Below, one piece after another: positions 1-12,177 of a stretch of 12,177 nt of DNA. The stretch's first letter is position 1. The number at the start of each line of letters is the position of its first letter. The notes under the pieces were generated by a model. That model was not told the origin of the DNA. It made no database searches and saw only the letters and a program-made list of their open reading frames with translations. The position numbers and the translations under genes are program-made. Where the stretch lies: NCBI GenBank assembly GCA_900556425.1, contig USOR01000014.1, positions 1 to 12,177 of the forward strand, read 5' to 3'. The DNA comes from an uncultured Coriobacteriaceae bacterium. GTDB lineage: Bacteria; Actinomycetota; Coriobacteriia; Coriobacteriales; QAMH01.

Positions 1-542
1 CCCTCGGGGTCAAGGCCGAGCGTCGGCTCGTCGAAGATGAGCAACGCGGGACCGTTGATGAGGGCGCGGGCGATGAGCGCGCGACGCGCCTGGCCCGTGG
101 AAAGCGTGAGCATGTCGCGCTCGGACAGCGATGGGATGCCGATCTCGCGGATGGCCTTGCGAGCCTGCTCGACCTGCTCGTCGGAGGCGCCGATGTGGAA
201 GGGCACGCCGACGCTTCCGAAGAAGCCTCCGAGCACGATGTCGAACACCGTGCGGTGCACCATCATGCGCTCCTGCACATCGGTGGACACGAGGCCGACC
301 GTCTCGATAAGGGTCTCCTCGGAGGGGTCGGGCTGACCCATGAAGAGCACCGGCGGCGTCTCGCGCCAAACCGGTTCGATCTCCTTGGTGAGCAGTTTGA
401 CCAGCGTCGACTTACCCGAGCCATTGGGTCCGAGCACGACGATGTGCTCGCCTTGGTTGATGACGAAGTCATCGACGTCGAGGATCACACGGCCGTCCAT
501 CTTTACTTTTGCGTCATGAAGACGAAGCAGTTCCTGAGTCAT
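1..542 (-). CDS. ABC transporter ATP-binding protein, ModF/YlmA-like (partial, C-terminus off window)
   Basis: This is an ATP-hydrolysing ABC subunit or stand-alone ABC protein. Reading leftward from the ATG at 542-540, 180 codons are present before the window ends, with no stop. Walker A GPNGSGKST is at residues 38-46, the signature LSTGQ at 147-151 and Walker B ALLIFDEP at 166-173, so the fold and ATPase residues look intact. The stretch between Walker A and the signature (FMGQPDP, STDVQER, GGFFGS) resembles the ModF/YlmA group, which is often annotated as a molybdenum-transport ATPase, although substrate evidence for that group is weak. An AAGGAG ribosome site lies about six bases before the start. 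The gene begins 13 bases after the typA stop, so the two are probably co-transcribed. A second ATPase domain could lie beyond the edge. The ABC call is certain; the subfamily is moderately sure. Confidence 0.88.
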   Translation of the reverse strand, partial: MTQELLRLHDAKVKMDGRVILDVDDFVINQGEHIVVLGPNGSGKSTLVKLLTKEIEPVWRETPPVLFMGQPDPSEETLIETVGLVSTDVQERMMVHRTVFDIVLGGFFGSVGVPFHIGASDEQVEQARKAIREIGIPSLSERDMLTLSTGQARRALIARALINGPALLIFDEPTLGLDPE

Positions 543-555
543 GGTGGCTCCTTAA

Positions 556-2379
<1,824 letters not shown>

Positions 2380-2398
2380 GTGCGTTATCCCGTTGTCA

Positions 2399-2415
2399 GC
2401 TGTATTTCGTACAGC
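2399..2415. other. Short inverted repeat in the typA leader
   Basis: GCTGTA and TACAGC form a 6-bp perfect inverted repeat around a 5-base spacer (TTTCG), 20 bases before the typA start codon. It could be a small leader hairpin or a protein-binding dyad. It resembles the E. coli LexA form CTGT-N8-ACAG but has a 7-base spacer, and actinobacterial LexA boxes have a different consensus. Function is unknown. Confidence 0.3.
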
Positions 2416-2471
2416 CTTGCAGGATACCACGCTTGATGCGCTCGCGCAGCATTTCATTGTGGGAATGGAGG

Positions 2472-2554
2472 GACTGGGCGACGGGCGACTGGAGGCTTGC
2501 TCTCGCACCCGACCCACGTCTCGCGCGATGCCTCCAGTCGCCCGTCGCCCAGTC
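2472..2554. repeat. 25-bp perfect inverted repeat with 33-base loop
   Basis: Arms at 2472-2496 and 2530-2554 are exact reverse complements over 25 bases; the left arm begins GACTGGGCGACGGGC. The loop is 2497-2529. The element fills most of the 183-base gap between the stop of the 133-residue protein (2563) and the typA start (2379). On the leftward transcript it starts eight bases after that stop codon, as a terminator would, but no T-run follows (the next bases read CCTCCATTCCC). Within each arm the motif GGGCGAC occurs twice in a row. It may be a terminator lacking a U-tract, a transcript-stabilising stem, or a dispersed palindromic repeat. Confidence 0.75.
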
Positions 2555-2562
2555 GCAGCGCA

Positions 2563-2964
2563 CTATCCGAAAAGAAGCTCTTCCTCGCCTGCCGGCATGG
2601 GGTCACTTACCTCGATGTGACCGTCCTCGTCACGTCGGTACAGCATGAAACCGCTCCAGGCGCAGTCCATGCCGCGCTCGCCAAACTCGAAGAGCAGCGC
2701 CGGCTGACCGGAATCGGTCTCGTCTTCCTGAACGAAGCCCTGGGTGAGCAACGCATAGCGCGTGCAGTCCTTGCCATAGGAACGTACCTGCTCGCGAGCG
2801 GCACGATAGCAACCATCGGGTGTGTCATCCTCGAAGGTCAGTAACTCGTCATCGCAATCCACCGCAAGCATGACGGGAACATCGTCATGCACGTCGAGCA
2901 TGTCAATCGCTGTCTGGATGAGCGCAATCGAAAGCTGATCGAGCTCAGGCGAAATCTGCGGCAT
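2563..2964 (-). CDS. Hypothetical protein, 133 residues
   Basis: I do not recognise this family. The gene is supported by an ATG at 2964-2962 with a strong AGGAGG ribosome site nine bases upstream, a clean stop, and codon use like its neighbours. The product is soluble and strongly acidic (runs such as DCDDE, FEDDTPDG, QEDETDSG and AGEEE), with three cysteines, no signal peptide and no membrane segment. A hydrophobic N-terminal helix (LSIALIQTAIDML, about residues 11-23) precedes an alpha/beta-looking middle (VPVMLAVD) and a C-terminal part with YRRDEDGHIEV. It lies between ecfA2 and typA, bracketed by long perfect inverted repeats on both sides, so it may be transcribed as a separate unit. 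Nothing in the sequence ties it to riboflavin or translation. Confidence 0.78.
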   Translation of the reverse strand: MPQISPELDQLSIALIQTAIDMLDVHDDVPVMLAVDCDDELLTFEDDTPDGCYRAAREQVRSYGKDCTRYALLTQGFVQEDETDSGQPALLFEFGERGMDCAWSGFMLYRRDEDGHIEVSDPMPAGEEELLFG

Positions 2965-2997
2965 GGTTATGTACCTCCTATACGGTGGACGCGGAAA

Positions 2998-3062
2998 TGA
3001 GACACTTGCTCAGGGACGTTGTCTCATAGCAAATGAGACAACGTCCCTGAGCAAGTGTCTCA
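2998..3062 (-). terminator. 30-bp perfect inverted repeat after ecfA2 (candidate terminator)
   Basis: Arms at 2998-3027 and 3033-3062 are exact reverse complements over 30 bases with a 5-base loop (AGCAA). Each arm itself starts with TGAGACA and ends with TGTCTCAT, so each could also fold alone. On the leftward transcript it begins 11 bases after the ecfA2 stop codon (3074-3076) and is followed by only a short T-run (TTTCC), then the ribosome site of the next gene. Likely roles are terminating or stabilising the ribU-ecfA1-ecfA2 message. The GGGACGTTGTCTCA core resembles the TTTTGTCT repeats near 7340-7500. Confidence 0.7.
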
Positions 3063-3073
3063 CGTCCCCACTG

Positions 3074-3910
3074 TCACGCACGCAGCGCAATCAGCGCCTC
3101 GACAAGCTGTTGCTCATCGAGAATGGGCTCAGGCAATACGAACCCGCGTTGTGCCAATTCTAGGGCAAACTTCGTGGCGCGGGGCACGTCAAGGTTGATG
3201 CGACGCAACTCGGCGGCGTTTTGCGCCGTGAACAGCTCGTCGGGTGTTCCCTGCATGTGCAGCACGCCGTGATCGAGCACGACGATGCGCGAACAGAGCT
3301 CGGCGACGTCATCCATCGAATGCGAGACGAGCACGATGGTGAGACCCTGATCGTTGAGGTCACGCAGGTAATTGCGAATCTCGTCCACCGTCGCAGGATC
3401 CATACCGGCAGCAGGCTCGTCGAGCACGAGTACGCTCGGCTCCATCGCGAGTATGCCGGCAAGCGCCACACGGCGCTGCTGGCCGCCCGAGAGATCGAAG
3501 GGGCTTCGTTGTGCGATGGCGTCGTAATCCAACCCCACATGATCGAGGGCCTCTCGCACGCGTCGATCCACCTCGTCATCGGACAATCCCAAGTTGCGAG
3601 GACCGAAGGCGACATCCTCGGCAACCGTGTTGGCAAAAAGCTGCGTCTCGGGGTATTGGAAAGCCAAGCCAACCTTCGTGCGCACCTCGCGGCGCAACTT
3701 GCGCTCGCGCGTGTCGAGCCCATCCACGAGCACACGTCCGGCCGTGGGGACGAGCAAGGCGTCCATGAGCTGCACGAGCGTCGACTTACCCGAGCCAGTG
3801 TGACCGATGACGCCCAGGAACTCGCCGTCCTCCACGACAAGGTCGATGTTCTGGAGGGCGTCATGCTCGTCGTCGTAGGAGAAGCTCACCTGTTCGAAAG
3901 CAATTGGCAC
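3074..3910 (-). CDS. ecfA2: Energy-coupling factor transporter ATPase EcfA2
   Basis: This is one of the two ATPases that power an ECF-type vitamin importer, pairing with EcfA1 on the inner face of the membrane. The protein has 278 residues, normal for the family. Walker A GHTGSGKST is at 36-44, typical of EcfA2 rather than EcfA1. The Q-loop glutamine is in FQYPETQLF (Q85), the signature LSGGQ is at 140-144, Walker B VLVLDEP at 160-166, and the switch histidine is in VSHSMDD (H197). The start is a GTG at 3910-3908, set by a strong GGAGGAG site just upstream; the next in-frame methionine lies inside the domain. It overlaps the end of ecfA1 by 25 bases, so translational coupling is likely. It is the last gene before a long hairpin, and no ecfT follows. 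Confidence 0.95.
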   Translation of the reverse strand: MPIAFEQVSFSYDDEHDALQNIDLVVEDGEFLGVIGHTGSGKSTLVQLMDALLVPTAGRVLVDGLDTRERKLRREVRTKVGLAFQYPETQLFANTVAEDVAFGPRNLGLSDDEVDRRVREALDHVGLDYDAIAQRSPFDLSGGQQRRVALAGILAMEPSVLVLDEPAAGMDPATVDEIRNYLRDLNDQGLTIVLVSHSMDDVAELCSRIVVLDHGVLHMQGTPDELFTAQNAAELRRINLDVPRATKFALELAQRGFVLPEPILDEQQLVEALIALRA

Positions 3911-4737
3911 AGCTCCTCCTCCAGCTTCTCCTCGGAAAGCCCCATCCCGACCTCGATTCCTCGCGCGCGCAGGTCCTCCGCAAGCTGAATCGAGAACGGC
4001 AGCTCGAGGCGCAACGCACGCAGCGCAGCGGCATCGGTGAAGACCTCATCGGGCGTGCCCGCGAGTGCGATGCGTCCGCGATCGAGTACGACGACCTTGT
4101 CGGCATTGAGCGCGTCTTCCATGAAGTGCGTGATGAGCACGACGGTCATTCCATCGGCATTGAGCTCGTGGGCCACGCGCGTGATGCCACGCCTGCCGCG
4201 GGCATCGAGCATGGCGCCCGGCTCGTCGAGTATGAGGATTCGCGGCCGCATGGCCAGAACGCCCGCGATGGCGATACGCTGCTTTTGGCCGCCGGACAGA
4301 CTCTCGATTTCGTCAAGCGCATGGTCTTGCATGGCAACGGTCGCAAGCGCCTCTTCGACGCGTGCGCGAATCTCGTCGGGAGCGAGGCCAAGGTTTTCCG
4401 GGCCGAAGGCGACATCGTCACGCACGACGGAGGCGACGGCCTGATTGTCGGGATTCTGAAACACCATGCCCGCGCTCTCTCGGATGGCAAAGACGCTGCG
4501 CTCATCACGCGTATCGAGGCCACCTACCGTGACACGTCCGCCCGTGGGCGTAAGCAACGCGTTGATGTGCTTGGCCAGCGTCGACTTGCCCGAGCCATTG
4601 GCGCCGAGAACGGCGACGAATTGACCGGCCTCGATATCCAGGCAGATGTCATCGAGCACGCAGGGTGCATCTGCCTTGTACGTAAACGATACGTGATCGA
4701 ACGAAATGCTGCCTGGATTGTCGAGGCCGTCACTCAT
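3886..4737 (-). CDS. ecfA1: Energy-coupling factor transporter ATPase EcfA1
   Basis: This is the partner ATPase of EcfA2 in the ECF vitamin-uptake complex, 283 residues long. Walker A GANGSGKST is at 45-53, the Q-loop glutamine in VFQNPDNQ (Q94), the signature LSGGQ at 147-151, Walker B ILILDEP at 167-173, and the switch histidine in ITHFMED (H204). After the catalytic glutamate it reads PGAMLDARGR where many EcfA1 proteins have ATSMLDPxGR; catalytic residues are kept. The C-terminal tail (LSEEKLEEELCQLL) suits the helical region that docks on EcfT in this family. The ATG at 4737-4735 lies only three bases after the ribU stop, and the 3' end overlaps ecfA2, so the three genes form one tightly packed operon. 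Confidence 0.95.
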   Translation of the reverse strand: MSDGLDNPGSISFDHVSFTYKADAPCVLDDICLDIEAGQFVAVLGANGSGKSTLAKHINALLTPTGGRVTVGGLDTRDERSVFAIRESAGMVFQNPDNQAVASVVRDDVAFGPENLGLAPDEIRARVEEALATVAMQDHALDEIESLSGGQKQRIAIAGVLAMRPRILILDEPGAMLDARGRRGITRVAHELNADGMTVVLITHFMEDALNADKVVVLDRGRIALAGTPDEVFTDAAALRALRLELPFSIQLAEDLRARGIEVGMGLSEEKLEEELCQLLSNR

Positions 4738-4740
4738 ACG

Positions 4741-5322
4741 CTAGTCCTTGGACATGAGGTTCTCGACCGGTTTGTAGAGCACGAAGGCAAGCACATCGTT
4801 GATGAGAATCTTGAGCGCGTTGAAGGGCAGCAGGATGGGGATGATCATGGCGGCGACCGTCGCCACGTCCGTGCCCGTGTAGATGGGCGTGATGAGCAGG
4901 TTACCCACGATGGCGCCGGCCAGCGAGAGGACAGAGCCTACGATGATGCCGATGAGCAGCGTCGTGCGCGTCTTCTTGGTGCGATAGATGAGCGCCATGG
5001 GCACGATCCAGCATGCCACGGCGATGATGGTCATGAGCGAGCCCCAAGGATCACCCATGATGAGGCCATGGATGGCAGCCGAGGCAATGCCCACGAGCAA
5101 GCCAGCACCCACACCAAGGCCGCAGGCTGCAAAGCCCGCGATGACGGCCGACGGGTCGTACTTCAGAAACGGTGCCGCGGGAAAGATGGGTGCCTCGATG
5201 AAGGACAGGATGAGCGAAAGCGCCGTGAAGAGCGCAAGCAGGACGAGCTTGCGCGTGCTCCATGCGGCCTTGCGTGATTGCTGCGGGGTGACGCTCCCGC
5301 CTGCGTGAGAGATTTCGGACAT
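4741..5322 (-). CDS. ribU: Riboflavin ECF transporter substrate-binding subunit RibU
   Basis: This is the membrane S-component that binds riboflavin and hands it to the ECF energising module. The protein has 193 residues, with a short charged N-terminus and about six hydrophobic segments (roughly 25-42, 57-87, 95-113, 120-145, 155-167, 172-185). The RibU hallmark IEAPIFPAAPFLKYDPS sits at about 42-58, and LPFNALKILINDVLAFVLYK near the C-terminus also fits the family. The ATG at 5322-5320 has an AAAGGAG site nine bases upstream, directly beside the 3' arm of the FMN riboswitch. That placement strongly supports flavin-controlled riboflavin uptake. It is the first gene of ribU-ecfA1-ecfA2. Function is supported by both sequence and riboswitch. 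Confidence 0.95.
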   Translation of the reverse strand: MSEISHAGGSVTPQQSRKAAWSTRKLVLLALFTALSLILSFIEAPIFPAAPFLKYDPSAVIAGFAACGLGVGAGLLVGIASAAIHGLIMGDPWGSLMTIIAVACWIVPMALIYRTKKTRTTLLIGIIVGSVLSLAGAIVGNLLITPIYTGTDVATVAAMIIPILLPFNALKILINDVLAFVLYKPVENLMSKD

Positions 5323-5338
5323 AGTAATCCGCTCCTTT

Positions 5339-5472
5339 CTGCTCTCTCATCCGGACTATGACCGTCGGCTCCAGAGTCTCACTGGATCGGCCCTTCCGAA
5401 GAAGGGTTTGCGGGCTGCGCGGCGCCTCTGGCCGCTTACCGCCGGTGGGGAATTCCGCCCCGCCTTGAACAG
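5339..5472 (-). promoter_or_regulatory. FMN riboswitch (RFN element) upstream of ribU
   Basis: Read leftward, the conserved RFN blocks appear in order: GGCGGGGCGG, AATTCCCCACCGGCGGT, AGCCCGC, GTGAGACTCTGGAGCCGACGGT (in parts) and AGTCCGGATGAGAGAG. The closing P1 stem can be drawn between CTGTTC (5472-5467) and GAGCAG (5344-5339). A variable arm ends in the CTTCTTCGGAAG hairpin. The AAAGGAG ribosome site of ribU (5338-5332) touches the 3' side of P1 and no terminator hairpin with a T-run separates them. Control is therefore probably at translation initiation: FMN binding would hide the ribosome site and lower riboflavin import. The motif is certain; the mechanism is inferred. Confidence 0.97.
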
Positions 5473-5482
5473 ATGCGTCGTT

Positions 5483-5507
5483 CATTATAGCCATTGCGTC
5501 TATAATG
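5483..5507. promoter_or_regulatory. Symmetric divergent -10 elements (ribU operon and aminotransferase)
   Basis: CATTATAG (5483-5490) and CTATAATG (5500-5507) are a perfect 8-bp inverted repeat with a 9-base spacer. Each half contains TATAAT in the direction of its own gene: forward at 5501-5506 for the aminotransferase, leftward at 5489-5484 for the riboswitch/ribU leader. At 17 bases' spacing neither has a convincing -35 hexamer (TCGTTC forward, GCGCCC leftward). The two start sites would lie about 35 bases apart with interleaved promoters, so they could compete for polymerase. One of the two may be only a by-product of the symmetry. Confidence 0.55.
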
Positions 5508-5543
5508 GGCGCCGACATTTTCACCACGAGGAAAGAAGCGGGC

Positions 5544-6830
5544 ATGACCGAGTACAAGGACCTGAGCACAGACGAGATGCGTACGCTCTACGACGCGCTT
5601 GAAAGGCAATACGAGGAGTATTGCGCCTTGGATCTCGAACTCAACATGGCCCGTGGCAAGCCGAGCCCCGAACAGCTCGAGCTCAGCATGCCGATGCTCG
5701 ACTGCGTTAACTCGACAAGCGACTACCGCGCCGTTGACGGCACCGACTGCCGTAACTATGGTGTGCTTGCCGGCCTGCCCGAAGCACGTACGTTCATCGC
5801 CAACATGCTCGACGTTGCGCCCGAGCAAGTCGTCGTGTGCGGCGCCTCGAGTCTCAACGTCATGTTCGACACCATCGCACGTGCCTGGATTTCCGGCCTA
5901 GGCGGACAGCTGCCCTGGAGCAAACTCGATAGCGTCAAGTTCATCTGCCCTGTTCCTGGCTATGACCGTCACTTCGCCATCTGCGAGCACTTCGGCATCG
6001 AGATGATCCCCGTCGAGCTGGGCGAGGATGGCCCGGACGTCGCCGAGGTCGCGCGCCTCGTGGCAGACCCGGCGGTCAAGGGCATCTGGTGCGTCCCCCA
6101 GTACTCGAACCCCTGTGGCTACACCTACTCGGACGAAGTCGTGCGCGGGCTGGCTGCACTTGAGCCGGCCGCTAGCGACTTCAGGATCTTCTGGGACAAT
6201 GCCTACGCCGTGCACCATCTCTATGATGACCCCACGCAGCAGGATCACGTGCTCAACATCATCGATGCTTGCGCCGATGCGGGCCATCCCGACATGGTCT
6301 TCGAGTTCTGCTCGACCTCGAAGGTGACGCTTCCCGGAGCGGGTATCTCGGCTTTTGTGTCGAGCGTCACCAACGTGGACGAGATGCTCGCGGCGATGGG
6401 AGCGCAGACCATCGGCTTCGACAAGCTCAATCAGCTGCGTCACGTACGCTTTTTGGAAGATGCCGAGGGCGTTGCCGCACACATGAGCAAGCACGCGGAG
6501 CTGCTGCGTCCGCGTTTCGAGAAGGTGCTCGAGATCTTCGACGAGGACTTGGGTGACACGGGCATTGGAAGCTGGACCCGCCCGCGCGGTGGCTACTTTA
6601 TCAGCTTCACCGGCCTTGACGGTACGGCCAAGGCGACCGTGGCCAAGGCCAAGGAAGCGGGCGTCGCACTGACGGGCGCTGGCGCGACTTGGCCGTACGG
6701 AGACGACCCGCATGACTCCAACATCCGCATCGCCCCGAGCTTCCCGAGCATCGAGGAACTCGAGCAGGCAGCGCGCATCTTCACCGTCTGCGCGCGCATG
6801 ACCGCCCTCGAAAAGCTGCTAGGGGAATGA
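5544..6830 (+). CDS. PLP-dependent aminotransferase, AspC4-like (type Ic aspartate aminotransferase)
   Basis: This is a cytosolic fold-type I aminotransferase, most likely moving the amino group between aspartate and 2-oxoglutarate. The protein has 428 residues. Family-specific features are MARGKPSPEQLEL near residues 35-47, NYGVLAGLPEAR at 71-82, SNPCG at 188-192, WDNAY at 217-221 and the PLP lysine in STSKVTLPGAG (K260). A carboxylate-binding arginine is plausible in NIRIAP near the end. These mark the Aminotran_MocR-type (PF12897) group that includes Corynebacterium AspT/AspC4. The frame is open from 5505, but the ATG at 5544 is preferred: AGGAAAG lies about ten bases upstream, and 5505 is only about five bases past the -10 box. 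The gene is monocistronic and converges on the rhodanese gene. Substrate is inferred from family. Confidence 0.9.
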   Translation: MTEYKDLSTDEMRTLYDALERQYEEYCALDLELNMARGKPSPEQLELSMPMLDCVNSTSDYRAVDGTDCRNYGVLAGLPEARTFIANMLDVAPEQVVVCGASSLNVMFDTIARAWISGLGGQLPWSKLDSVKFICPVPGYDRHFAICEHFGIEMIPVELGEDGPDVAEVARLVADPAVKGIWCVPQYSNPCGYTYSDEVVRGLAALEPAASDFRIFWDNAYAVHHLYDDPTQQDHVLNIIDACADAGHPDMVFEFCSTSKVTLPGAGISAFVSSVTNVDEMLAAMGAQTIGFDKLNQLRHVRFLEDAEGVAAHMSKHAELLRPRFEKVLEIFDEDLGDTGIGSWTRPRGGYFISFTGLDGTAKATVAKAKEAGVALTGAGATWPYGDDPHDSNIRIAPSFPSIEELEQAARIFTVCARMTALEKLLGE

Positions 6831-6861
6831 AAAGCGACCCCCGGATTTCTCCGAGGGCCGC
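6826..6861 (-). terminator. GAAA-tetraloop hairpin terminator of the rhodanese gene
   Basis: On the leftward transcript, arms 6861-6850 and 6845-6834 form a 12-bp stem closed by a GAAA loop (6849-6846) and followed by TTTTCATT. Two positions that are A-C mismatches in a forward transcript become G-U pairs in the leftward one, and the loop is GNRA only in that direction, so the leftward RNA is the functional form. It lies 57 bases beyond the rhodanese stop and its T-run crosses the aminotransferase stop codon. A near-identical hairpin is at 7436-7463. Confidence 0.7.
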
Positions 6862-6867
6862 TTGACT

Positions 6868-6900
6868 AGACAATTGTCGCCGGGGCGCTTTTATCTGGTT
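6868..6900. repeat. AGACAA/TTTTATCT palindromic repeat, copy 1
   Basis: The sequence reads AGACAATTGTCGCCGGGG, then CGCTTTTATCTGGTT. Together with the adjoining hairpin it aligns without gaps to 7433-7498 (50 of 66 bases, and 30 of 31 across the hairpin part). Its TTTTATCTGGTT end matches TTTTGTCTGGTT at 7359-7370. A 10-bp palindrome, GACAATTGTC, lies at 6869-6878. The repeat is somewhat decayed relative to the copy at 7470-7498. Confidence 0.6.
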
Positions 6901-6917
6901 ATTTTCGACGAAACGCC

Positions 6918-7268
6918 TTACTTCTCGACTGGGCGTGAGGAGTCGGAGATCCAGTCGATCCAGCTGCCCTCGTAGCACTTCTGGCAGGTGTTGCCGGCAT
7001 TCTCGAGCAGGTCGCAGGCTTCGCGTGCAAGGCCGCCGTTGTAGCAGTAGACGATGAAGTCCTTGGTGGGGTCGATTCCGGCATCGAGAACCTCGCGCAG
7101 GAAGAACTCGGTCGTGTCCTCGGGAGCGTCCTTGGCCTCCATAAGCGGGGCCGAAACCGCACCGGGAATGCGGCTTTCCAGGTACATGTCCTTGGGACGC
7201 ACGTCCAGAATAGGCATCTTGCCAAGGTGCTCGAGCACGTAGGCGGCATCAACGATTTCGTATTTCAT
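6918..7268 (-). CDS. Rhodanese-like sulfurtransferase, single domain
   Basis: This is a small cytoplasmic rhodanese-fold protein of 116 residues that would carry sulfane sulfur on a cysteine. ILDVRPKDMYLESRIPGA (residues 20-37) is the typical opening of the fold, and VYCYNGGLAREA places the catalytic cysteine at C75 in a CYNGGLA loop. GSWIDW at 101-106 matches the usual Gly-rich/aromatic end. The loop lacks the arginine of the common CxxGxR form, and a second CxxC pair (C95, C98) sits near the C-terminus, which is unusual. The ATG at 7268-7266 has a strong AAAGGAGG site. It is transcribed in the same direction as the iron-sulfur gene, 232 bases away across terminator-like repeats, so it is probably a separate unit. 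A role in molybdenum-cofactor sulfur chemistry is only a guess. Confidence 0.88.
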   Translation of the reverse strand: MKYEIVDAAYVLEHLGKMPILDVRPKDMYLESRIPGAVSAPLMEAKDAPEDTTEFFLREVLDAGIDPTKDFIVYCYNGGLAREACDLLENAGNTCQKCYEGSWIDWISDSSRPVEK

Positions 7269-7338
7269 GGGAACCTCCTTTTATAGTCGATAGCGATGAT
7301 TTCATTTTAGCAGCAGAACGTGAGCGAAACGTCAGCGT

Positions 7339-7370
7339 GACAAAACGCGCCGGGGACGTTTTGTCTGGTT
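7339..7370. repeat. GACAAAACG/CGTTTTGTC palindromic repeat, copy 2
   Basis: GACAAAACG (7339-7347) and CGTTTTGTC (7357-7365) are perfect 9-bp arms around CGCCGGGGA. The right half continues as TTTTGTCTGGTT (7359-7370), which is also the perfect complement of AACCAGACAAAA at 7389-7400. Two mutually exclusive hairpins are therefore possible here. It sits about 70 bases before the rhodanese start on the leftward strand. Confidence 0.7.
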
Positions 7371-7388
7371 TCGGGACATCTGTCACAT

Positions 7389-7420
7389 AACCAGACAAAA
7401 ATGCCCTGGCGAGCTTTGCC
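7389..7420. repeat. AACCAGACAAAA repeat, copy 3 (decayed)
   Basis: It begins AACCAGACAAAA; positions 7394-7420 match 22 of 27 bases of the better copy at 7471-7497 (shared GGCGAG and TTTG core). Its right arm has decayed (CTTTGCC in place of TTTTGTC). The AACCAGACAAAA half pairs with 7359-7370 of copy 2 in a 12-bp stem with an 18-base loop. Confidence 0.6.
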
Positions 7421-7428
7421 CGATCGCA

Positions 7429-7463
7429 AACGAAAGCGGCCCCCGGATTTCTCCGAGGGCCGC
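7429..7463 (-). terminator. GAAA-tetraloop hairpin terminator of the iron-sulfur gene
   Basis: On the leftward transcript the arms 7463-7452 and 7447-7436 pair over 12 bp, with one G-U and no mismatch, around a GAAA loop, followed by TTTCGTTT. It lies about 37 bases past the stop of the iron-sulfur gene, with a palindromic repeat (7470-7498) between. It is almost identical to the hairpin at 6834-6861. Probable intrinsic terminator of the oxidoreductase operon. Confidence 0.72.
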
Positions 7464-7469
7464 CCGATA

Positions 7470-7498
7470 AGACAAAAGTGCTCCGGCGAGTTTTGTCT
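7470..7498. repeat. AGACAAAA/TTTTGTCT palindromic repeat, copy 4
   Basis: AGACAAAA (7470-7477) and TTTTGTCT (7491-7498) are perfect 8-bp arms around GTGCTCCGGCGAG. It lies two bases after the stop codon of the iron-sulfur gene on the leftward strand and immediately precedes the tetraloop terminator. This is the best-preserved of the repeats joined to a terminator hairpin. Confidence 0.7.
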
Positions 7499-7500
7499 CA

Positions 7501-7920
7501 CTATTGGCGGGTGCTCGCGTACTCGATGCAGGAGCGCGTCGTCGTGCCGGCATCGTCGAGCTCCCAGAACCGCGCACCGCGGGCCTCGAGTCGCGCCCGG
7601 GCCTGCGAGTAGGCGGAGTCCGGGTCGTCGACATCGCCGAAGGCCAGCGCCTGCGTCGGGCAATCCATCACGCAGAACTGCGGCTCGTCCTCCTTCATGC
7701 GCTCGGCGCAGAAAGTGCAGCTCGGCTTGTAGATCGGCTGCCACCACATACGCAAGTCGGGATACACGCCCTCGGGACGGTCGATGCCGGCGCCCGAGCC
7801 GTGAGTCTCGACCTCGACGCGATACTCGTCATCTTCCAGGTGATTGCCGACCTTGCAGCCCATCGCGCAGGTCCAGCAGCCTATGCAACGGTCGATATCG
7901 ACCAACATCTTGTGTGCCAT
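7501..7920 (-). CDS. Short 4Fe-4S ferredoxin-type electron-transfer subunit (DmsB/PhsB-like)
   Basis: This is an electron-transfer partner for the molybdopterin enzyme encoded just upstream. The protein has 139 residues and nine cysteines. The first motif is CIGCWTCAMGC (C12, C15, C18, C22); the second is C68xxC71, then C83xxxC87P. That suits two [4Fe-4S] clusters. DmsB-type subunits usually have about 200 residues and sixteen cysteines for four clusters, so this is a reduced version lacking the second ferredoxin repeat. The region between (GVYPDLRMWWQPIYKPSC) is typical of the family. No Tat signal or membrane segment is present. The ATG at 7920-7918 is three bases after the oxidoreductase stop, with AAGGAGG overlapping its 3' end, so translation is coupled. 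A lone cysteine (C131) is at the end. No membrane anchor gene follows. Confidence 0.9.
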   Translation of the reverse strand: MAHKMLVDIDRCIGCWTCAMGCKVGNHLEDDEYRVEVETHGSGAGIDRPEGVYPDLRMWWQPIYKPSCTFCAERMKEDEPQFCVMDCPTQALAFGDVDDPDSAYSQARARLEARGARFWELDDAGTTTRSCIEYASTRQ

Positions 7921-7923
7921 GAC

Positions 7924-10347
7924 TTAAGCCTCCTTCACGATGGATTCCTGCGGATTGGGCGTTATCTCGCCCTCGAACTTGCGGATATCACACCACGAAT
8001 CCCAGTAGCAGTCGGTCGAGCCCGTGAGCGAACTCATTGCCTCGACGTAGGGGTTGGGATGGTGTCCCGCGGCAAGCCAATCCGCGAACCACTTGTCCTC
8101 GAGCGGGCCCTGCGAATCCTGGCCAGCGCACTGGTGCGTGATCTCGGCGTAGGTGCCCTCCTCGAACTGACGACGACGCCAGCCAAACCACACGTGCACG
8201 GTGCCATCCGGAACGCTCTCGTCGAGCACCAGACGCGTGATGACATGCCCACGCTCGTTGAAGACCTCGACCATGTCACCTTCGGCCAGCCCCAAGCGCT
8301 GGGCCTGCACCGGATTGAGCCTCGTGGCGGGCGTCTCTCCGGAAAGCTTCACGGTGATGGGATCGTCGGTGAAGCTCGATTGCATGAAGAAACGCTGGCG
8401 ACCGGTGAAGAGCTGGTATGGATACTCGCTCGACTTGCCGATCTTGTTCGGCTCGAGCACCTTGGTCGTTGCCATGCCGAGTTCGGCGAGCTTCTCGGAG
8501 TAGATGATCTCCATGCGTCCGGTCTCGTTATCGAGCACCTCGGCGGGATTGAGGTACGGCGTGTACTTGGGCTCGGGCGGAGCGGCAGCGCGAATCATCT
8601 TCTCGGCCTTGAGACGCTCGTAGGTGACGGGCGGCTGGATGCCGGCGATGAGCGGGTACTGCGTCTGCAGGCGAATGTCGATGTATTCGGGAATGCCCAT
8701 CGTGAAGTAATCGCCCAGACCGACGCGCTTGGCGAGCTCGCTGAACACCCAGACGGGCTCATGGCCGTCGACCTGCGGCTCGATGGCCGGCTCCTGCAGA
8801 ATGACGTGGTTGTAGCATGCTCCCGTGATGAGATCCTCGCGCTCGAAGGACATGAGGTCGGGCAGCACGTAGTCGGCGATTTCGCCGGTGTCGGTGAGCC
8901 ATACGTCATAGTCGACGACAAGCTCCATGTCCTTCACGACGTCGAGCCATCGCTGACGATCGGGCTGCTGGTGCACGGGATTGCCGCTGCATACGATGAG
9001 CGCCTTGTAGGGGCTGTCATCGGCCTCGGCCGCCGCAAACCATTGCGCCATGCGCACGGGCACCGACTTCACGCCGGCAACGCCATCGGGGCAGCTGATG
9101 GGGATGTCGTTGAAGACGAGCGGCCAGCTCTGGAGCTGCAGCGCCTCGAAGACGCCGCTACCCGGCTTGCCCAGGCGCCCCGTCAGGGCGCCGAGCAGCA
9201 GGAACTGGCGATAGGTCTCGTTGGAGTTGCGGTAGCGCAGACCATAGCCCGACAGGATGAAGGCGTTTTCCGCCTCGACCCAGTCACGTGCAAGACGCTC
9301 GGCGTCCTCGGCGCTGATACCGCACTTCTCGGCGGCAAGCTCAAAGGTGTACTCCGCCGCGGCGTCCTTGAGCTTCTGCAGTGCCGTGGTGTAGCGCTTG
9401 CCGTCGATCTCGTAGCTGCCGAAAAGCTGGACGTCGGCCCCCTCGGGATAATCTCCGCGCTTGGGCGCAACACCGACGGCGGCATCACTCGCCGCATCCC
9501 AGACAAGGTAGCAGCCATCATCGGAATCGCGGGCGAGCAGCCCCGTCTCGTCATCGACGAGGTAGGCGGCGATTGAGCGTGCGAGCAGGTACTCGCTTGC
9601 CTGCAGGTCGTTTTGCAGGATGTAGTTCACCATGGCCATGGCCAGATAGCCATCGGACGCCGGCTTCATGGCAACGAACTCGTCAGCAAAGCCTGCCGTG
9701 CCGTCGAAGATGAGGCCGAGGTCGACGATGCGCGCACCAGCCTCGCGGGCACGTACGAGGTTCTGGGCGCAGCGCATCTGGTTCTCGATGGGATTGCAAC
9801 CCCAAACGTAGATGAGATCCGTGCCGACCATGATGCGTGGGTCGATCACGGTGCGAGGAAACTCGCTGCCCGCGTTATAGAACTCGGCGTAGAAGGGACC
9901 GTTATCCAAACCGATCGAGCCGAGCGGAACGGTGACGCCAAAGGTGTTCGCGAAACGGAACGGCATCAGGTTCTCGAAGCTGTACTGGGCAGGGACGCCT
10001 GCGCCGAGGTTCCAGAGAACGACCTTATCAGGGCCATACTCGTCGCGAATCTTGCAGAGCTTCTCGCCAATTTCGTCGAGGGCTTGGTCCCAGCTTATCT
10101 CCTCCCACTTGCCCTCGCCGCGCTCGCCCACGCGCTTGAGCGGTTTTCTGAGACGTTTGGGATCATAGGGTTGACGACCCGCAAGGCAGCCCTTCTGGCA
10201 AATGTGCCCATCGGGCTCTTCCGGCTGAGAGTAGACGATGCGCTCCATGCGCTCGATCTTGCCATCTTTCACGATGGTCTTGAGCGCACAGTAGTCATGG
10301 TCACCCCAACCGGGACAAGCAGTGTAGACGAACGATTCTTCCGACAT
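7924..10347 (-). CDS. Molybdopterin (bis-MGD)-dependent oxidoreductase, DMSO reductase superfamily catalytic subunit
   Basis: This is a catalytic subunit of 807 residues that should bind bis-MGD molybdenum or tungsten and one iron-sulfur cluster. The N-terminal motif CPGWGDHDYCALK puts cysteines at 11 and 20, followed by ICQKGC (C50, C54). Many relatives have a cysteine near position 14-16; here W14, G15 and D16 occur. Family blocks follow: DPKRLRKPLKRVGERG (62-77), WEEISWDQALDEI (81-93), VWGCNP (181-186), a NPVHQQPD block, LTDTGEIADYVLPD, and a C-terminal dinucleotide-binding domain (LNPVQAQRLGLAEGDMVEV). The metal ligand could not be assigned. The start at 10347 has GAGAGGAG upstream and begins just before the motif; an upstream start (10395) is less likely. 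No twin-arginine signal is seen, so it should be cytoplasmic. Substrate unknown; a soluble transhydroxylase- or dehydroxylase-like enzyme is one possibility. Confidence 0.93.
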   Translation of the reverse strand: MSEESFVYTACPGWGDHDYCALKTIVKDGKIERMERIVYSQPEEPDGHICQKGCLAGRQPYDPKRLRKPLKRVGERGEGKWEEISWDQALDEIGEKLCKIRDEYGPDKVVLWNLGAGVPAQYSFENLMPFRFANTFGVTVPLGSIGLDNGPFYAEFYNAGSEFPRTVIDPRIMVGTDLIYVWGCNPIENQMRCAQNLVRAREAGARIVDLGLIFDGTAGFADEFVAMKPASDGYLAMAMVNYILQNDLQASEYLLARSIAAYLVDDETGLLARDSDDGCYLVWDAASDAAVGVAPKRGDYPEGADVQLFGSYEIDGKRYTTALQKLKDAAAEYTFELAAEKCGISAEDAERLARDWVEAENAFILSGYGLRYRNSNETYRQFLLLGALTGRLGKPGSGVFEALQLQSWPLVFNDIPISCPDGVAGVKSVPVRMAQWFAAAEADDSPYKALIVCSGNPVHQQPDRQRWLDVVKDMELVVDYDVWLTDTGEIADYVLPDLMSFEREDLITGACYNHVILQEPAIEPQVDGHEPVWVFSELAKRVGLGDYFTMGIPEYIDIRLQTQYPLIAGIQPPVTYERLKAEKMIRAAAPPEPKYTPYLNPAEVLDNETGRMEIIYSEKLAELGMATTKVLEPNKIGKSSEYPYQLFTGRQRFFMQSSFTDDPITVKLSGETPATRLNPVQAQRLGLAEGDMVEVFNERGHVITRLVLDESVPDGTVHVWFGWRRRQFEEGTYAEITHQCAGQDSQGPLEDKWFADWLAAGHHPNPYVEAMSSLTGSTDCYWDSWCDIRKFEGEITPNPQESIVKEA

Positions 10348-10457
10348 GCGAAACTCCTCTCGCTCTCTCTTTGCTGGCTGCGACATGCGACGCATCCGCG
10401 ATGACCAGTCACGACTAGATTACGCCCATCCACCCTTATGTAAAGCATTTTTCATTA

Positions 10458-10491
10458 ACAATATATGCATTCAATAATATTGTAATTGAAT
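10458..10491. promoter_or_regulatory. Nested AT-rich palindromes, candidate MarR operator
   Basis: The 177-base gap between the divergent oxidoreductase and marR starts turns AT-rich near marR. It holds ACAATAT/ATATTGT (10458-10464 and 10477-10483), ATTCAAT/ATTGAAT (10469-10475 and 10485-10491) and the 11-bp palindrome CAATAATATTG (10472-10482). MarR proteins commonly bind AT-rich dyads of 16-20 bp next to their own gene. The site is 34-67 bases before the marR start and could also control the oxidoreductase. No -35/-10 pair could be assigned with confidence on either strand. Confidence 0.5.
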
Positions 10492-10524
10492 AACTTTTCG
10501 CAAAGTCGCATCTGTGAGGTTTTC

Positions 10525-11460
10525 ATGATCGCAACGGAACTTGACCAGGAGCGCCGTAAGCTCGAGGACGTCAATCATCCACAGCATGTCGCCGCAGTCG
10601 AGGGCCTGTCGGACTACCTCACCATCATGAACCTGCTGTACAAATCCATCAGTCGCATCCTGGAGGGCGACTGCTCCCTTACGACCCTGCAGTACCGCAT
10701 GCTCTTGCGCCTGCTATCGGCTCCGCGGCAGACCATGCGCAGCACCGACCTTGCCGCCAACCTGCGCGTCGGCGTGAGCACGGTTTCGGCTGCAGTTCCC
10801 CATCTCGTGGAGGAAGGGCTCGTTACGAGGGCGGAGGACCCCGATGACATGCGCGTGGTGTCACTCGCCCTCACCGCCAAGGGAGCATCGTCCATCGAAC
10901 GGGCAGACTACCATGTTGGGCAGTTCTTGCAGAACTACTGGAAAAACCTCACGCCCGAGCAGCTCGAGGCCGCCTTTGCCAGCTCGACGAACGCGGTAAC
11001 CATCCATGATGCGCAGCGCATCGAGAACGGCAAGTTCCGCCTGGACACGGCATTCTTCGACACCATCATGATTTCGCGCACGCTCACGGCGCAACGTCTG
11101 CGCGAGCTCGGCCTCAAGACATCCGAGCTTCGCGTATTGCTCGCGCTCTACCTGCTCGGCCCCAACGTGACCGCATCTCGCGTCGCCGACTACCTTTTCC
11201 TGAAGAGCAGCGACATCACGGCACCCATGAAGACCCTGGAATCCCAGGGACTCATCTCCAAGGAACGCAGCGTGGAAAACCGCCGGACCAAATTGCTACA
11301 GTTGACGCAAAAGGGGCGTGACCGAACGGAAGAGCTGCTTCTTCCCACGCACGACGCGCTTCTCGAGACGTGCCACAGCGACGAAGAGGCTGTGCGCATA
11401 CACCTGAGCGCCGCGCAAGGCATCGTCACGCGCGAGCGCAGCATGAGGCTTTTCGGGTAG
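10525..11460 (+). CDS. Tandem MarR-family transcriptional regulator (two winged-helix domains)
   Basis: This is a DNA-binding regulator of 311 residues, about twice the usual MarR length. It has two winged-helix units. The first spans about 35-125, with helix-turn-helix MRSTDLAANLRVGVSTVSAA and wing EDPDDMRVVSLALTAKG (104-120). The second spans about 180-270, with VTASRVADYLFLKSSDITAP and wing RSVENRRTKLLQLTQKG (248-264). The first matches the DxxDxRxxxLxLTxxG hallmark well; the second keeps NRRTKLLQLTQKG. A single chain could thus form a pseudo-dimer. The ATG at 10525 has GTGAGG five bases upstream; an in-frame TTG at 10486 lies inside the palindromic region and is rejected. It is divergent from the oxidoreductase and probably regulates it. 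MarR proteins often sense phenolics or redox, but no ligand can be read here. Confidence 0.92.
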   Translation: MIATELDQERRKLEDVNHPQHVAAVEGLSDYLTIMNLLYKSISRILEGDCSLTTLQYRMLLRLLSAPRQTMRSTDLAANLRVGVSTVSAAVPHLVEEGLVTRAEDPDDMRVVSLALTAKGASSIERADYHVGQFLQNYWKNLTPEQLEAAFASSTNAVTIHDAQRIENGKFRLDTAFFDTIMISRTLTAQRLRELGLKTSELRVLLALYLLGPNVTASRVADYLFLKSSDITAPMKTLESQGLISKERSVENRRTKLLQLTQKGRDRTEELLLPTHDALLETCHSDEEAVRIHLSAAQGIVTRERSMRLFG

Positions 11461-11889
11461 GAGCGGGCGTTCACGCGCCGACGCTCGCTCAGCACGCTTT
11501 AGCAGGAAGACCATGAGCATGGCGACCAGCATGAGCGCGACGTAGAAGCCGAAGAAACCCTGGAAGCCGATGCCATCGAGTAGTCCCGTAGCGACAACCG
11601 CGCCGAACATGGTGCCCAGCGACGTGCCCGCTCCCTTGATTCCCGCGCGCCTGCCCATGTGCTTTCTGGAGGCCGCGCTCATCACGGCGACAGTCATGAC
11701 GTTGGTCGCCAGCGCGAACGCCACGACGAAGGTGCCACCGATGGTGGCCGAGTAACCAATGCTGTCGTAATAGTAGGGGATGCCTCTATTGAGGCCCTTC
11801 ATGTAGAGGGCCGTGAACACCGTCACGACGACCAGGACGACCAGCGATGTGACGTCCATGCGCGATGTGTGTCCGGCGTGCTTGTTCAT
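11296..11889 (-). pseudogene. Decayed MFS transporter remnant, overlapping the 3' end of marR
   Basis: The leftward frame from the ATG at 11889 encodes membrane segments at about residues 13-33, 48-70, 88-107 and 109-130. TM1 and TM2 of an MFS protein are recognisable (NRGIPYYYDSIGYSATIGG). They are followed directly by GRRAGIKGAGTSLGTMFGA and GFQGFFGFYVALM, which resemble the TM4-TM6 region. The TM3 region and the entire second half are missing. Transporter-like sequence ends near residue 143, exactly where the frame runs into the end of marR on the opposite strand (11460). The remaining 54 codons are antisense to marR and look like non-coding translation. No ribosome site precedes the ATG. 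A working short membrane protein cannot be excluded. Confidence 0.65.
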
Positions 11890-11997
11890 GATGCGTTCAT
11901 TGTACGCGCACGGGACCTGGGGTAAGGGGTCATCTTGGGTTTGGGAGCGGTCCTGCGAGAAGTGCTTTTTACTTGAGAAGGATTTATAGATTGCTTA

Positions 11998-12026
11998 TTG
12001 AAAATATAGCTTATAAGCTATATAAT
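11998..12026 (+). promoter_or_regulatory. Promoter with 20-bp palindromic operator for the toxin gene
   Basis: TTGAAA (11998-12003) and TATAAT (12021-12026) are separated by exactly 17 bases, a near-ideal vegetative promoter. The spacer and first bases of the -10 box form a perfect 20-bp palindrome at 12004-12023, with half-site ATATAGCTTA. A protein bound there would block polymerase. Toxin-antitoxin loci are usually repressed by their own antitoxin at such sites, so this is a probable autoregulatory operator. Confidence 0.85.
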
Positions 12027-12047
12027 TACACCGACAAAAGGGGTTCT

Positions 12048-12177
12048 ATGTGGTCCATTGATTACGAACATATAAGCACTTGGCTTCACACACTTGGCGA
12101 TGAAGACATTGACAACATATACGCAGCTCTGGAGATACTGGAAAGCGAGGGGCCAAATCTTGGAAGACCCTTGGTGG
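12048..12177 (+). CDS. RelE/HigB-type toxin, Gp49-like family (partial, runs off window)
   Basis: Forty-three codons are visible from the ATG at 12048 to the window end. WSIDYEHISTWLHTLGDED, then IDNIYAALEILESEGPNLGRPLV, matches the N-terminal pattern of phage Gp49-like/HigB toxins (PF05973), in which a GPxLGRP motif precedes the core strands. These proteins are ribosome-dependent or related mRNA endonucleases. The catalytic C-terminal part and the expected downstream antitoxin (HigA-like helix-turn-helix) lie outside the window. AAGGGG is five bases upstream and a strong promoter with a palindromic operator lies at 11998-12026. The gene and its leader are much more AT-rich than the rest of the window, which suggests horizontal acquisition. 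Confidence 0.82.
   Translation, partial: MWSIDYEHISTWLHTLGDEDIDNIYAALEILESEGPNLGRPLV

Follow-up and report, generated by a model that had tools for sequence, protein, structure and literature searches.

The 12,177 nucleotides considered here (positions 1 to 12,177, forward strand, of contig USOR01000014.1 in assembly GCA_900556425.1, from an uncultured Coriobacteriaceae bacterium; hereafter "the window", meaning this whole stretch at its full length) encode the two subunits of a molybdopterin oxidoreductase of the dimethyl sulfoxide (DMSO) reductase superfamily, together with a divergently oriented regulator. This pair appears to form a separate lineage that stands closer to the perchlorate and nitrate enzymes than to the polyphenol dehydroxylases known from the gut. 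The features on which the argument draws are the following:

7924..10347, minus strand: catalytic subunit, a DMSO reductase superfamily molybdopterin oxidoreductase of 807 amino acids, without a twin-arginine translocation (Tat) signal
10198..10317, minus strand: motif of the FS0 iron-sulfur cluster, C11-x4-D16-H17-x2-C20-x29-C50, in which the second Cys has become Asp
9904..9906, minus strand: Asp148, the predicted molybdenum ligand (68/68 rows), a position on which alignments disagree by up to a few residues
7501..7920, minus strand: two-cluster 4Fe-4S partner subunit of 139 amino acids, with only the first and last Cys groups of DmsB
10525..11460, plus strand: double-MarR regulator, 311 amino acids from its ATG, divergent from the enzyme genes
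10440..10491, no strand assigned: conserved AT-rich block between regulator and enzyme genes, from an alignment of eight intergenic regions, a putative operator/promoter
6918..7268, minus strand: single-domain rhodanese, near the pair in the window and in 4/33 loci, in three arrangements; its membership of the unit is uncertain

The catalytic gene runs from the ATG at 10347, preceded six bases upstream by GAGGAG, to 7924, and the partner gene begins three bases past its stop; an in-frame ATG further upstream (10395) would add no hydrophobic stretch to the protein, whose Pfam domains, Molybdopterin and Molydop_binding, are both those expected. A species-level scan, with one genome per species, returned 78 loci, among them 33 close relatives (47–97% identity), 31 of which are Coriobacteriia labelled Adlercreutzia, Enterorhabdus, Ellagibacter, Eggerthellaceae, Eggerthellales, Coriobacteriaceae or Coriobacteriia, the other two being an uncultured bacterium (L005) and an uncultured actinobacterium (L029). 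Carriers include Adlercreutzia faecimuris JBNU-10 (two copies), Adlercreutzia sp. ZJ176 and ZJ473, Enterorhabdus sp. P55, and Ellagibacter isourolithinifaciens DSM 104140, in whose family, the Eggerthellaceae, 34 of 138 genomes hold a match at E <= 1e-90. These 33 loci and 20 further ones, partly from the same contigs, make up the set of 53 loci used below, so counted that not all are independent (identical rows L011/L208 and L022/L195). The partner gene is present in 50 of the 53, and in the remaining three the catalytic gene reaches the contig end; judged by sequence, the two-gene unit is thus conserved across Eggerthellaceae.

The first-pass annotation of this DNA had described an altered Fe-S motif, and the alteration turns out to be real and fixed. 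Across 68 aligned rows (the window and 67 relatives), Cys11, Cys20 and Cys50 are kept without exception and His17, next to the altered position, in 67; at the usual second Cys position, Asp16 occupies all 64 rows of the main clade, when the four rows of a sister subclade (30–32% identity) carry Cys. Given this distribution, Asp16 is most simply read as a derived change that became fixed in the main clade, and the predicted ligands of FS0 are three Cys and Asp16. A comparable arrangement is described in PMC8387239 for the nitrite oxidoreductase (NXR) of Kuenenia, KsNXR, whose FS0 ligands are C67, D71, C75 and C115, the authors inferring 3Cys/1Asp or 3Cys/1His ligation, by lineage, for NXRs and nitrate reductases (NARs). 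The window clade thus resembles NXR in having Asp at the second FS0 position. It is also interesting to note that a catechol-dehydroxylase-type row of Ellagibacter (L129) likewise shows Asp-His for the usual Cys-His in its FS0 motif, apparently independently. As regards the active site, Asp148 is invariant in the 68 rows, when the same position is Cys in 15/15 catechol-dehydroxylase-type rows of Ellagibacter; matched to the Asp of PcrA in the profile alignment, it is probably the ligand of the bis-molybdopterin guanine dinucleotide (bis-MGD) molybdenum.

The same rows bear on the location of the enzyme. As had been noted from the window alone, the catalytic subunit starts at its cluster motif with no export signal: ahead of the first cluster Cys, all 68 rows lack an RRx[FLIMV] Tat motif, and that Cys is preceded by 9–20 residues in 67 of them and by 61 in one, whose start is probably over-extended. 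The reported lack of an adjacent anchor gene holds more widely as well. A tblastn search with two NrfD proteins and Escherichia coli DmsC (E <= 1e-6) over the 53 relative loci and the window matched only L003, although a diverged anchor could escape such a search, and the NrfD gene of L003 belongs to a separate, convergent molybdopterin–iron-sulfur (MOP-FeS) set rather than to a pair of the window type. Within this scope, neither the Tat signal nor the anchor of an exported, membrane-anchored respiratory complex is found. That the enzyme is soluble is therefore well supported at the level of sequence, and its location would be cytoplasmic.

The partner subunit is reduced in a way that fits this picture. 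It holds nine Cys, as the earlier annotation had counted when it proposed two clusters, and its Pfam matches are to 4Fe-4S models only, all under cut-off. Of 37 partner rows, 35 retain the first eight Cys, the two exceptions being truncated or gapped L031 rows, and the ninth is unique to the window sequence. In an alignment with E. coli DmsB, all eight fall on Cys of its first and last groups, and nothing in the partner corresponds to the two groups between them. The groups that remain would bind the pair of clusters closest to the catalytic subunit, and those that are lost the pair closest to the membrane; on this assignment, the retained half faces the catalytic subunit and is the half that a soluble enzyme would need.

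To which lineage does such an enzyme belong? By tree and by VIA-align, the closest characterized enzymes are the type II DMSO reductases (PcrA, NXR, ethylbenzene dehydrogenase [EbDH] and NarG), with PcrA the closest by profile and Foldseek. The profile search gave 362 bits for PcrA, its best score, then 241 for acetylene hydratase (fourth sequence), 238 for EbDH (fifth sequence), 149 for NarG, 136 for pyrogallol transhydroxylase and 129 for NXR; as NarG and NXR stand low in it, the type II affinity there is carried by PcrA and EbDH. Foldseek comparison of the predicted fold places acetylene hydratase at rank 14 and pyrogallol transhydroxylase at rank 37; the nearest VIA-align structures are perchlorate and nitrite/nitrate enzymes, EbDH being the third distinct enzyme by fold. 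Among the 50 structures listed by these two comparisons, none is titled catechol dehydroxylase. The best-scoring NCBIfam model, TIGR03479, gave 255 bits, yet its cut-off of 984.75 is not reached. In the tree, the window clade is sister to NarG and a chlorate-reductase-like row (L175) with a Shimodaira–Hasegawa-like approximate likelihood ratio test (SH-aLRT) value of 89, a placement that is suggestive, not decisive. Overall, tree, predicted fold and best profile match point to the neighborhood of the type II DMSO reductases, perchlorate reductase first. Like these, the window clade has a conserved Asp near the molybdenum-ligand position. Unlike them, the window pair has no Tat signal, a two-cluster partner instead of the four-cluster beta subunit, no haem subunit gene recognized beside it (neighbors were not scanned specifically for haem subunits), and Cys11 (68/68) instead of His at the first FS0 position, the His ligand being reported as conserved in type II (PMC8840923), when NXR has Cys67/Asp71 instead (PMC8387239). 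The nearest named relatives on plasmids, which served as tree rows only, reach about 30% identity at best, and their neighborhoods comprise an NrfD-anchored haloarchaeal set, a Novosphingobium set and a chlorite-dismutase-linked set. Exported reductases of Eggerthellaceae (L114, L115 and L003:14765) lie, like the window clade, on the tree side of DmsA and type II; the partners of L114 and L115 have 18 and 17 Cys, L115 has a Tat motif (RRSF) and L003:14765 an NrfD gene, when the window pair has none of these. The first-pass annotation had held that clustering with an exported respiratory clade would speak against a soluble enzyme: the nearest characterized clade is indeed mostly exported, but neither a Tat motif nor an adjacent anchor was found in the window clade itself.

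In architecture, the pair looks like something else. The catechol dehydroxylases of the Gordonibacter type (Dodh, Gp Hcdh, Eadh1-3) are described (PMC11887054, PMC7028382, PMC12771579, PMC11585353) as cytoplasmic enzymes of two subunits, one of them a small Fe-S partner, and the window pair shares with them two Tat-less subunits, a small 4Fe-4S partner, the same Cys groups and the same bacterial family. The soluble, two-subunit, Tat-less architecture as such is thus already published for these enzymes (PMC7028382, PMC11887054, PMC12771579). As a reference for them we used Ellagibacter, whose genome is reported to carry the characterized eam cluster; judging by content rather than by accession, this cluster would correspond to a stretch of its contig C1 where three molybdopterin genes lie with an amidohydrolase inside 20 kb. 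In both of two trees (8 rows, mostly duplicates, having been removed before the first), separate groups emerge, each at the starred level of support: the catechol-dehydroxylase-type rows, 19 in the first tree and 12 in the second, on the FdhF side, and the window clade, with 20 and 12 rows, on the DmsA/type II side. Forcing both into a single clade costs 172 log-likelihood units (approximately unbiased [AU] test, p-AU 1.9e-11). The kinship with gut catechol dehydroxylases that had been entertained for the window enzyme does not survive this test: for all the fit of its architecture, its separate clade and its Asp148 in place of Cys at the putative ligand position set it apart, by sequence, from the catechol dehydroxylases of the Gordonibacter type.

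A different proposal is that the chemistry of these enzymes, dehydroxylation of a catechol or phenol, was reached from another lineage. Besides the common architecture, with the same two Cys groups in a two-cluster partner, the hosts (Ellagibacter) and the presence of a divergent regulator are shared, and one genome (L019/L209) has a catechol-dehydroxylase-type gene with a LuxR regulator, a major facilitator superfamily (MFS) gene and a URO-D-like gene within ~8 kb. The rejected joint clade and the predicted Asp ligand nonetheless count against this proposal too, the catabolic neighbors occur in that one genome only, and the regulator is of LysR or double-MarR type rather than the LuxR, with MFS neighbors, described for the Gordonibacter-type enzymes; we consider it unlikely, at perhaps one chance in four.

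A MarR-type regulator had been proposed from the window alone, and a dedicated divergent gene of this type is indeed present, the description being refined to two MarR domains in one chain: Pfam MarR_2 and MarR match above cut-off in two stretches, one per half, and the structure model (predicted local distance difference test [pLDDT] score 92.3) shows two winged-helix domains in a single chain. An alternative start, TTG at 10486, would give 324 amino acids. The two halves gave no significant alignment with each other (best E 4.1). The best match in the PDB is SarS of Staphylococcus aureus (1p4x; E 4.4e-07; template modeling [TM] score 0.52 by query; 17% identity), a two-domain SarA/MarR-type protein that likewise has two winged-helix domains in one chain, whereas the window regulator is longer, of a different lineage and linked to a single enzyme. 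Among 5.8 billion proteins, a search in which candidates were limited to those sharing exact words returned 46 relatives at E <= 0.001. Of 13 relatives in 137 genomes of the family, 12 are encoded divergently from a window-clade enzyme, with match edges 191–412 bp apart, and the thirteenth (G055, 31% identity) is without such a neighbor; on these comparisons, the double-MarR regulator is dedicated to the window-clade enzyme. A conserved AT-rich intergenic block in eight MarR-type loci, the window included, is its putative operator/promoter region.

The identity of the regulator is itself fluid. Across the 53 loci, divergent regulators are of LysR type in 15 and double-MarR in 14, with otherwise only weaker recurrences; the LysR identity was confirmed by Pfam in five loci, and these LysR proteins are unrelated to the double-MarR protein. 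When the regulator class is mapped onto the enzyme tree for the 28 rows in which it is known (L029 and L030 being excluded as too short), at least six switches result, and the window, with its MarR type, stands beside rows 95–97% identical to it (L001–L003) that bear LysR. As a whole, the conservation of the unit across Eggerthellaceae lends support to the earlier picture of a soluble two-subunit enzyme under a MarR-type regulator.

Taken together, we favor, with a probability of roughly 55%, a substrate-induced, cytoplasmic, two-subunit molybdenum oxidoreductase that forms a distinct lineage close to the type II DMSO reductases and most likely acts as a reductase of a small organic compound. 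A soluble donor, possibly ferredoxin, would pass electrons to the small partner, in which just one dicluster half of a DmsB/NarH-type subunit remains. The electrons would cross its two clusters and reach, via the 3Cys/1Asp FS0 (Asp16), the bis-MGD molybdenum, probably Asp148-ligated, where a small organic substrate would be reduced through loss of an oxygen or hydroxyl group; the divergent double-MarR protein (LysR in some relatives) would sense substrate or product and control the two-gene operon. Electron donor, reductive direction and substrate class are the more conjectural parts of this scheme. On a broader view, which we hold tentatively and at slightly less than even odds, the pair would represent a new clade beside the type II DMSO reductases, and one whose origin in gut Eggerthellaceae was separate from that of the Gordonibacter-type catechol dehydroxylases; its members would combine an Asp-ligated FS0 and half of a relay subunit with interchangeable dedicated regulators, and would reduce a diet- or host-derived compound without an assigned enzyme.

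Several observations weigh against the favored reductase. Habitat and architecture are the only grounds for its reductive direction and substrate, and EbDH, a type II relative, is soluble and works oxidatively. The support of 89 for the sister placement falls short of the starred level; formate dehydrogenases and acetylene hydratase (~243–205 bits) outscore NarG and NXR in the profile search, Foldseek puts NarG only 35th, next to pyrogallol transhydroxylase, and exported Eggerthellaceae rows such as L115 (274 bits) also score well with the type II model. Asp148, for all its match to the Asp of PcrA, lies two columns off Asp222 of NarG in the MAFFT alignment. Finally, no transporter, donor or pathway gene is widely recurrent beside the pair among the 515 gene clusters of the 53 loci.

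Could the enzyme instead run in the oxidative direction, as ethylbenzene or cholesterol C25 dehydrogenase does, by a water-derived hydroxylation of a hydrocarbon or steroid side chain? The rank of EbDH by fold and by profile would suit this, as would a choloylglycine hydrolase gene ~0.7 kb downstream of the pair in L004 (13100-14059, Pfam) and in L009, where it is 97% identical, though the gene was not found in the other 51 loci or in the window. EbDH is, however, reported to hand its electrons to a high-potential haem (PMC8840923), of which no counterpart was found beside the pair, where no scan aimed at haem subunits was made, and with an acceptor of ferredoxin type the oxidation would presumably be unfavorable, so that we regard this direction as improbable. 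We give somewhat less credence still to a cytoplasmic oxyanion reductase of the nitrate, chlorate or selenate type: the perchlorate and nitrite/nitrate structures nearest by VIA-align and the 3Cys/1Asp FS0 shared with NXR speak in its favor, but the Asn proposed to hold the substrate in NAR/NXR corresponds to Gly15 in 68/68 rows, which argues against nitrate or nitrite, and control is of a LysR/MarR, small-molecule type. Least probable of all is hydroxyl transfer or hydration without net redox, as in pyrogallol transhydroxylase, with which kinship had initially been considered, or acetylene hydratase, since the conserved two-cluster relay suggests net electron transfer and both enzymes, despite the common soluble architecture and the relatively high ranks of acetylene hydratase, score below PcrA, a weak argument in that NarG and NXR do so likewise and fare no better than the transhydroxylase.

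From a functional perspective, gut Eggerthellaceae hold dozens of molybdenum enzymes without an assigned role, some of their enzymes changing hormones and polyphenols, and the Ellagibacter genome alone gives 33 molybdopterin-domain matches. Filed by architecture, the window pair would pass as a catechol dehydroxylase, a filing that by sequence would be wrong. A dedicated regulator per operon offers a direct route to the substrate via induction, and the fixed Asp-for-Cys change, with Cys-bearing sister rows, a handle on the role of an Asp-ligated FS0. Among the open-licence PMC papers listed, judged by titles and opening lines of abstracts, none describes the window clade, and those listed for tandem or fused MarR proteins (10 of 17) have no bearing on it; the MopB review PMC10100899 makes no mention of Coriobacteri, Eggerthella or catechol, and reductase repertoires of E. 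lenta are treated in PMC13060105.

Neighborhoods were compared by counting gene clusters, most of them without a Pfam scan, within 5 kb of the enzyme and in four or more loci. Besides enzyme, partner and regulators, these comprise ATP-binding cassette (ABC) ATPases (6 loci), TrkH/TrkA-type potassium uptake (4–5), rhodanese (4), a cluster overlapping the LysR gene (7) and blocks limited to two sets of four near-identical contigs; no third gene recurs widely with the pair. Candidate substrates suggested by neighbors, namely the choloylglycine hydrolase of L004 and L009, the URO-D, MFS and catechol-dehydroxylase-type genes of L019/L209 and an HGD-D gene in L013, were set aside as too sporadic. 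A TrkH-type potassium transporter gene lies within 3 kb of the unit in L004, L005, L009 and L202, and at 5 kb in L013/L192. In metagenome-assembled genomes of Eggerthellaceae/Coriobacteriaceae, several window-related MOP-FeS pairs (30–65% identity) are clustered on one contig (L025, L031–L033, L210).

The remaining genes of the window are ordinary: a TypA/BipA GTPase, ABC proteins, an aspartate aminotransferase, the rhodanese, an MFS remnant and an energy-coupling factor (ECF) transporter component with a flavin mononucleotide (FMN) riboswitch. This riboswitch (RF00050, 5335-5476, minus strand, 100.5 bits) is the sole Rfam match in the window and is unrelated to the pair; it lies upstream of the ECF S component (4741-5322, with a riboflavin-transporter Pfam match) and two ABC-type ATPases, which together are probably a riboflavin uptake operon. 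The MFS remnant (11296-11889, minus strand), an open reading frame of 197 amino acids matching only positions 99-191 of MFS_1, is convergent with and overlaps the regulator gene, and is perhaps the trace of a transporter formerly linked to the enzyme system. Between the partner and rhodanese genes (7310-7500), repeated GACAAAA...TTTTGTC units resemble hairpins, one inverted pair of 38 nucleotides having been computed.

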